From assembly GCA_009691685.1 (NCBI GenBank), contig SIAU01000007.1, forward strand, positions 1 through 48,025: 48,025 nucleotides of DNA, read 5' to 3'. Below, piece after piece: positions 16,995 through 23,278 of the stretch. The notes beneath the pieces were generated by a model. It had not been told where the DNA came from. It ran no database searches and worked only from the letters and a program-made list of their open reading frames with translations. Source of the stretch: Opitutales bacterium. Its GTDB lineage: Bacteria > Verrucomicrobiota > Verrucomicrobiia > Opitutales > UBA953. Position 1 is the first letter of the stretch. Each line of letters opens with the position of its first letter. The position numbers were made by a program, and so were the translations under genes.

Positions 16995-17273
16995 ATGTCA
17001 CGCTCTCGTAAAAAAGGATTCTTCGTCGACCCACATTTAGTGGACAAGATCGCTGCTGCTCAAAAAACCAGCAACCGTAAGCCCATCAAAACGTGGTCAC
17101 GTCGTTCGACGGTTACTCCTGAATTCGTAGGCCTCAATCTCGAGGTTCATAACGGTAAGGCCTTCATTGCTGTGTACATCACAGAAAATATGGTCGGACA
17201 TAAACTCGGTGAGTTCGCTCCAACGCGCACCTTCCGTCAACACACTCAACCTTCACGTAAGGAAGCCCAATAA
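16995..17273 (+). CDS. rpsS: 30S ribosomal protein uS19
   Basis: uS19 sits in the 30S head and contacts uS13 and the A-site tRNA region. The 92-residue product begins [19 protein letters not shown] and contains [17 protein letters not shown] and [15 protein letters not shown], all standard. In nearly every bacterium rplV follows directly; here an exported-protein gene starts 5 nt after the stop codon. Confidence 0.97.
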
Positions 17274-17278
17274 TCTTT

Positions 17279-17620
17279 ATGCGTTTCAGTCACTCAATCT
17301 TCGCGGTGTTCGTTGCTATGGTTCTTACCATTGTAGCGGAAGCGCGTATGTTGGGTTCAGCTGAAGCCGAAGGTCGAGCCAAGGTAATCCAAGTGATCGC
17401 TGGAAATAACACTGACTTAGTCGTCGTGTCCGGTGGTTATAATTGTGGTCTTCGTCCAGGTGCCGTTTGCACCGTCACTCACGAAGGCCGTGCTTTTGGT
17501 TCGGTGATTGTGGCCGAAGCGACCGAACAACGCGCTATCGCACTTATCCTTTCACTCGATTCTTCAACGCAAATTACGTCGGGCGACACGATCACCCTTC
17601 GTCCTAACCCACGCATTTAA
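17279..17620 (+). CDS. Small exported protein embedded in the S10 operon
   Basis: This 113-residue protein is not ribosomal. Residues 8-20 are a hydrophobic export signal (AVFVAMVLTIVA) with a likely cleavage near residue 22 or 23. The mature part has the pattern of a small beta barrel: VVVSGGYNCGLRPGAVCTV, a G-F-G turn (RAFGSVIVAE), then ITSGDTITLRP. This recalls the FlgT C-terminal/BAM-type barrel pattern in which a glycine-rich turn precedes a 'GD.v.l' end; that is resemblance by eye only. Two cysteines (C56, C64) could form a disulfide. Gaps of 5 nt to rpsS and 23 nt to rplV, and base use like its neighbours, suggest stable residence and co-expression with ribosomal genes. Confidence 0.8.
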   Translation: MRFSHSIFAVFVAMVLTIVAEARMLGSAEAEGRAKVIQVIAGNNTDLVVVSGGYNCGLRPGAVCTVTHEGRAFGSVIVAEATEQRAIALILSLDSSTQITSGDTITLRPNPRI

Positions 17621-22642: not shown

Positions 22643-23278
22643 ATGAGCGAAGAAACCAATAACGCAGCGCCAGCACCCGCGCCGGCCCCTACTAATGCGC
22701 CTGCTAATGCGCCTGCTAATCAAGGCGGCGATCGTCGTGGCCAAGGAAATCGTCGTGGTCAAGGTGGCCAAGGCGGTGGACAAGGTCGCCCACCTCGTCG
22801 CGATAATCGCAACGAAGCTGCTGCTTCTGAATTCAATGACAAAGTCGTCCACGTTAACCGCTGTTCAAAAGTGGTTAAGGGTGGCCGCCGTTTTAATTTT
22901 GCAGCCCTCGTGGTTGCCGGTGACGGCAAGGGTCGCGTCGGCGTAGGTTATGGTAAAGCCAAAGAAGTTCCTGATGCTATTCGCAAGGGTACTGATCGTG
23001 CTCACCGTGCTCTCGCTACTTACAATCTTCGTAATAACACCATTCCTCATGAAGTGATTGGTCGTGCTGACGGCGGCGTCGTTATGCTTCGTCCCGCCGC
23101 TCCTGGTACCGGCCTAATCGCGGGTGGTGGTGTGCGTGCTGTTCTCGAAGTGGTCGGACTAAAAGACGTTCTCTCGAAATCGATGGGATCGAATAATCCT
23201 CAAGCGATTGTTAAAGCGACACTGGATGGTCTTTCCCAACTCCGCACTCTCGCCCAAATTAAAACTCTTCGCAGCTAA
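22643..23278 (+). CDS. rpsE: 30S ribosomal protein uS5 with low-complexity N-terminal extension
   Basis: uS5 lines the mRNA entry channel and helps decoding accuracy. The conserved core starts near residue 64 (DKVVHVNRCSKVVKGGRRF) and includes GDGKGRVGVGYGKAKEVPDA. In front lies an extension of about 60 residues: first Ala/Pro/Asn-rich, with a 12-nt DNA repeat (GCGCCTGCTAAT) in tandem, then Gly/Gln/Arg-rich (RRGQGNRRGQGGQGGGQGR). E. coli uS5 is 167 residues; this one is 211. The extension is likely disordered and, from its arginines, could bind RNA. The ATG at 22643 has no better internal alternative. rpmD (uL30) does not follow; rplO does. Confidence 0.96.
   Translation: MSEETNNAAPAPAPAPTNAPANAPANQGGDRRGQGNRRGQGGQGGGQGRPPRRDNRNEAAASEFNDKVVHVNRCSKVVKGGRRFNFAALVVAGDGKGRVGVGYGKAKEVPDAIRKGTDRAHRALATYNLRNNTIPHEVIGRADGGVVMLRPAAPGTGLIAGGGVRAVLEVVGLKDVLSKSMGSNNPQAIVKATLDGLSQLRTLAQIKTLRS

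Follow-up and report, generated by a model that had tools for sequence, protein, structure and literature searches.

Few gene strings in bacteria are as conserved as the S10 operon, and an exported-looking frame lodged between two of its genes raises the question of whether that frame is real, how far it reaches in the phylum and what its product might do. The window, that is, the whole stretch of 48,025 nucleotides analysed here, comes from a freshwater bacterium and carries an otherwise standard S10-spc string, in which rpsS (S19, 16995-17273) and rplV (L22, 17644-17982) follow each other on the forward strand in an order that is conserved in relatives. Between them, on the same strand, a frame of 113 codons with an ATG start occupies positions 17279-17620. 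It begins 5 nt past the rpsS stop (17273) and is separated from the rplV ATG (17644) by 23 nt, exactly as the first-pass annotation had placed it. At 22643-23278 of the window, the rpsE frame is extended at its N-terminus by a long segment with many Ala-Pro and Gly-Arg-Gln residues.

The 17279-17620 frame proved to be a genuine gene. An orthologue was found in 21 of the 25 genomes of the genus, the window's included (the others at 45-90% identity), and at every locus where both flanking genes were read it lay between rpsS and rplV; completeness is 64-85% in the four genomes where no match was obtained. Purifying selection acts on the mature part of this short form, with a within-genus dN/dS of 0.12-0.28 in pairs with dS ≥ 0.15, and in the two most divergent genus pairs the signal region changes faster than the mature part. 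The orthologues at the same place, together with the mature dN/dS, rule out a chance or misread frame. In addition, the codon adaptation index of the gene (0.69) lies within the range of the ribosomal genes (0.686-0.783), while unrelated genes of the window mostly fall at 0.35-0.67, which bears out the earlier observation that its base use is like that of its ribosomal neighbours. At one genus locus (L013, genome G004), near a contig end, rplV is only 68% identical to that of the window and rpsC is cut, the neighbours being at 84-85%; this is perhaps an assembly join.

The same gap was then read in an order sample of 132 genomes; rpsS and rplV share a contig in 118 of them. Of these 118, 62 have the gene inside a gap of 339-609 bp, and in the other 56 it was absent and the gap was at most 221 bp. 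All gaps above 230 bp hold the gene and all gaps below 230 bp lack it, the latter being nearly all empty with clean junctions. No gene remnants were found in the gene-less gaps tested, and in the longest empty gap of the order (218 bp; L132, genome G114) the profile finds none. A 63rd order genome has the gene at a locus split across two overlapping contigs. A suspected tandem pair in genome G086 turned out to be a single gene, seen on both of two contig ends that overlap over 387 bp (98.7%). A scan of named genomes gave 43 loci, nearly all labelled as Opitutae, Opitutales or Verrucomicrobia MAGs. Presence in the rpsS-rplV gaps of the order rules out a recent insertion in one species. Since about half of the order genomes lack the gene, healthy ones of 2-6 Mb included, it must be dispensable or replaceable. 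Some families have the gene, some lack it and others are mixed, as would be expected if the gene is old and was lost on several occasions.

The N-terminus of the window protein, MRFSHSIFAVFVAMVLTIVAEA, resembles a signal peptide. A probable Sec signal would cover residues 1-22 (17279-17344, forward strand) with a predicted cut after AEA, as judged from the sequence, the hydrophobic N-termini of the orthologues and the low model confidence of this segment. Signal-peptide calls were made by eye and with a simple hydrophobicity rule in a script. Among the 61 distinct frames read in the order, nearly all have a hydrophobic start and the barrel at the end; 48 comply with the rule and the remaining 13 keep a hydrophobic segment. 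A signal-like N-terminal segment is found in nearly all family members, short and long, and the window protein is thus probably exported by Sec to the periplasm. After the presumed cleavage site, P-x-[FW]-V occurs in 29 of 65 short forms. Many long forms have an RSLT or RSLK motif just past this site (L162, L168, L170, L172, L175, L181, L188).

The mature part was predicted by AlphaFold2 to form six strands (residues 33-107, pLDDT mostly >90), with a poorly modelled N-terminus. From this model, the fold matches and the conserved residues, a six-stranded FlgT_C-like beta barrel was assigned to residues 32-107 (17372-17599, forward strand). The signal-like start and beta-rich mature part described in the first-pass annotation were therefore both recovered. 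Conserved positions in the short forms (D46, G53, G57, G61, L89 and G102-D103) are mainly turn glycines and hydrophobics, and the family alignments show no catalytic-looking set of conserved polar residues. Nearly all orthologues of the window genus and of one sister genus end in R(A/P)NPR(I/L)-stop (17600-17617 in the window; L002-L021, L035), an unusually constant C-terminus that was not found in the rest of the order nor in the long forms.

The window protein matched no Pfam and no NCBIfam family and, with no known family match and a signal-like N-terminus, it does not qualify as a ribosomal protein. FlgT (3w1e) was rank 2 in its Foldseek search, and a second fold comparison gave a list filled by F1-ATPase crown barrels, with Z about 10. 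A PDB profile search with the short forms gave no significant relative, and a fold search against viral proteins gave nothing significant. Of the Pfam families that 62 short forms matched at E ≤ 0.1, none was FlgT_C (PF16538).

The short-form profile also matched frames of 216-390 residues in the majority of the remaining class genomes, with E down to 1e-16 per genome, and the rpsS coordinates place many of these right after rpsS. In a class sample outside the order (29 genomes, chosen mostly one per family), a protein of 234-290 residues fills the rpsS-rplV gap in 19 genomes and the gap is at most 148 bp in nine. In the one left (L178, genome G206) the gap measures 552 bp, and neither a recognisable relative of the gene nor a clear family reading frame was seen in it. 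In other classes of the phylum, the family gene was found in the gap in at least 16 of 26 genomes, a count that is not a frequency because these genomes were preselected for having a match somewhere. The long form is also present in genus g76. The search of this gap across Verrucomicrobiota thus gave relatives in the order, the class and other classes. The assumption that rpsS-rplV rarely holds extra genes does not apply to this phylum, where 62/118 order and 19/29 class genomes have the gap filled. The small protein first described is real, but that description was too narrow, as it is the short form of a family that in other orders and classes usually carries a coiled-coil rod.

The layout of the long form consists of an export signal (in nearly all), a long coiled coil and then the same barrel, and AlphaFold2 accordingly predicted long helices followed by the barrel. 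Profile-profile comparison (hhalign 99%, E 9e-18) shows that the barrels of the short and long forms are homologous. FlgT was Foldseek rank 1-2 for the long form, with Z of 11.6 (8z5n) and 11.4 (3w1e) and an rmsd of 2.0-2.1 over 75-77 residues. FlgT_C gave sub-threshold Pfam matches in seven of 19 long forms (best E 5e-4), and no family member among the matches listed passed its gathering cut-off. Since FlgT comes first in both fold comparisons of the long form and second in the Foldseek list of the window protein, the barrel of FlgT C-terminal type guessed at earlier is correct as a statement on fold; as a family assignment it fails, the Pfam cut-off not being passed.

Barrel distances track rpsS+rplV distances in the order (Spearman 0.41) and in the other classes (0.54), with 0/500 permutations reaching these values, and among the 19 class long forms the correlation was not significant (115/500 permutations). 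Vertical inheritance is consistent with the data, because barrel distances follow those of the flanking genes in the order and in the other classes. The gene was probably put between rpsS and rplV before the sampled Verrucomicrobiota classes diverged, and the simplest reading would be that the long form is ancestral and that the rod was lost in the window's order. The literature searched gave no paper that deals with a gene in the rpsS-rplV gap of Verrucomicrobia, and no text match was found there for Akkermansia essential-gene data. The family is thus phylum-wide and apparently undescribed, with a known fold at a surprising place.

A further protein with the same C-terminal barrel was found at 11 loci of the order (hmmsearch E 4e-11 to 9e-5). 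These paralogues have a membrane segment and a coiled coil before the barrel, two of the 11 being seen only partly or weakly. In seven loci from several families of the order (L141, L142, L143, L144, L146, L147 and L150), the paralogue adjoins the glucose-6-phosphate isomerase gene (four Pfam-confirmed, the rest by sequence). Some of these pgi-side proteins give sub-threshold FlgT_C matches, the best with 24.7 bits against a cut-off of 27. At L145, another membrane coiled-coil frame comes after a similar gene.

The explanation that we favour, and whose chances as a whole we put at about even, is that of a Sec-exported protein of the periplasm that works through a small FlgT_C-type beta barrel, serves as a docking or spacer element for envelope growth and is made in step with ribosomes. 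The gene would have entered the rpsS-rplV gap before the sampled classes split. Outside the window's order, most lineages would carry the barrel at the end of a coiled-coil rod, and in the Opitutales-like order of the window the rod would have gone, leaving the signal, a short linker and the barrel. If translated from the S10 mRNA, the protein would be made in proportion to ribosomes and hence to growth rate. It would then act as a constitutive, non-enzymatic component of the growing envelope, the barrel binding a periplasmic partner. This docking role is the best guess because known FlgT_C-like barrels sit in periplasmic rings and no catalytic-looking residues are conserved. The genus and order orthologues, the dN/dS and the codon index agree with the original idea of a long-resident, exported-looking and probably highly co-expressed gene, while the part in envelope growth or quality control that came with this idea is a putative one. 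The relatives at the same spot across Verrucomicrobiota suggest that the product is a new envelope factor whose synthesis keeps pace with that of ribosomes. An exported-looking protein kept in the S10 operon across the phylum implies selection for such synthesis. It would offer a direct route to studying the coupling of envelope growth and translation in Verrucomicrobiota, and the gene itself is a candidate phylum marker.

Other roles were weighed against this one. An MreC-like cell-shape adaptor, in which a periplasmic rod and barrel link the peptidoglycan elongation machinery to the membrane, is unlikely. The long form does have the same broad plan as MreC, which appears at Foldseek rank 17 (2j5u, E 7e-3), and some long forms give sub-threshold MreC matches. 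However, only one barrel is predicted and FlgT is the better fold fit; the MreC core (PF04085) gave no match for the window protein and a match in one of 19 long forms, at E 0.0018. Moreover, a true MreC was found in 123 of the 132 order genomes, with or without the S10-operon barrel gene, including the window's own genome, where it lies elsewhere, on G000:C11. An accessory of an outer-membrane ring, like FlgT in the Vibrio flagellar ring or TsaP at type IV pilus secretins, is also rather doubtful. In its favour, the long form finds FlgT as its top fold match, the barrel stretch gives weak profile matches to TsaP or LysM-protein chains (3jc8, E 0.039; 6ve2, E 1.4), and nearly every genome of the order has secretins. 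Against this, genome G102 (98% complete) has the barrel gene and no secretin match, and nearly all gene-less genomes keep their secretins. In addition, no LysM domain was seen among the Pfam matches listed for the window protein, short forms and long forms, and the FlgT N-terminal and middle domains were not found, the short form being signal plus barrel and the long form rod plus barrel. No co-occurrence of the gene with either of the two envelope systems tested in the order, secretins and MreC, was found, and such co-occurrence is uninformative because both are nearly universal.

Two further readings were weighed. The gene could be a neutral passenger, kept only since its deletion would disturb an essential operon; its absence with clean junctions in about half of the order and its faster evolution than the ribosomal neighbours speak for this. 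It is nevertheless improbable, given a mature dN/dS well below 1, a fold conserved over the phylum and ribosomal-like codon use. Very improbable is a cis-acting role, in which the signal peptide takes S10-operon polysomes to the membrane, or a sensed export state (SecM-type arrest) tunes rplV and later genes. The frame does look exported, lies within a ribosomal operon with junctions of 5-23 nt, and has in the window genus and one sister genus the R(A/P)NPR(I/L) ending, which we take to be loosely like RAxP arrest endings. Ribosome-bearing internal membranes, reported from PVC bacteria (PMC4452313), were also counted in its favour. However, conservation lies in the mature barrel, the signal evolves more quickly in the two pairs that have diverged most, and neither the remainder of the order nor the long forms have the C-terminal motif. 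Likewise very improbable is a secretion-linked regulator that, by export from S10-operon polysomes at the membrane or by stalling upon failed export, would couple ribosomal-protein synthesis to envelope and secretion capacity across Verrucomicrobiota.

The PVC signature protein (CT421.2 family), common to all PVC phyla, is described as about 53-80 aa long (PMC3444138). It is shorter than the window protein and reported also from Chlamydiae, Planctomycetes and Lentisphaerae. The crown barrel of the F1/V1-ATPase alpha/beta subunits has the same six-stranded topology (rmsd mostly 1.6-3.3 over 66-76 residues), but only the fold is common, as the window protein has no ATPase domain, is 8-20% identical and looks exported. 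TsaP, the secretin-associated LysM protein, shows weak profile matches on the barrel stretch; no LysM domain was found in the present family, and in at least one of the genomes that carry the gene there is no secretin match. MreC shares with the long form the plan of a membrane-near start, a coiled coil and a barrel; unlike MreC, which has two barrels, the long form has one predicted barrel, and the true MreC is a separate protein in the same genomes. The pgi-adjacent proteins share the barrel with the S10 gene and keep a membrane segment and a rod, being paralogues and not the S10 gene itself. FlgT, which is part of the Vibrio H ring (PMC7693769), has in its C-terminal domain (PDB 3w1e, 8z5n) the barrel fold predicted for the present family, which in turn is free of the N and M domains, lies in a ribosomal instead of a flagellar gene neighbourhood and, in its long form, carries the barrel together with a coiled-coil rod.
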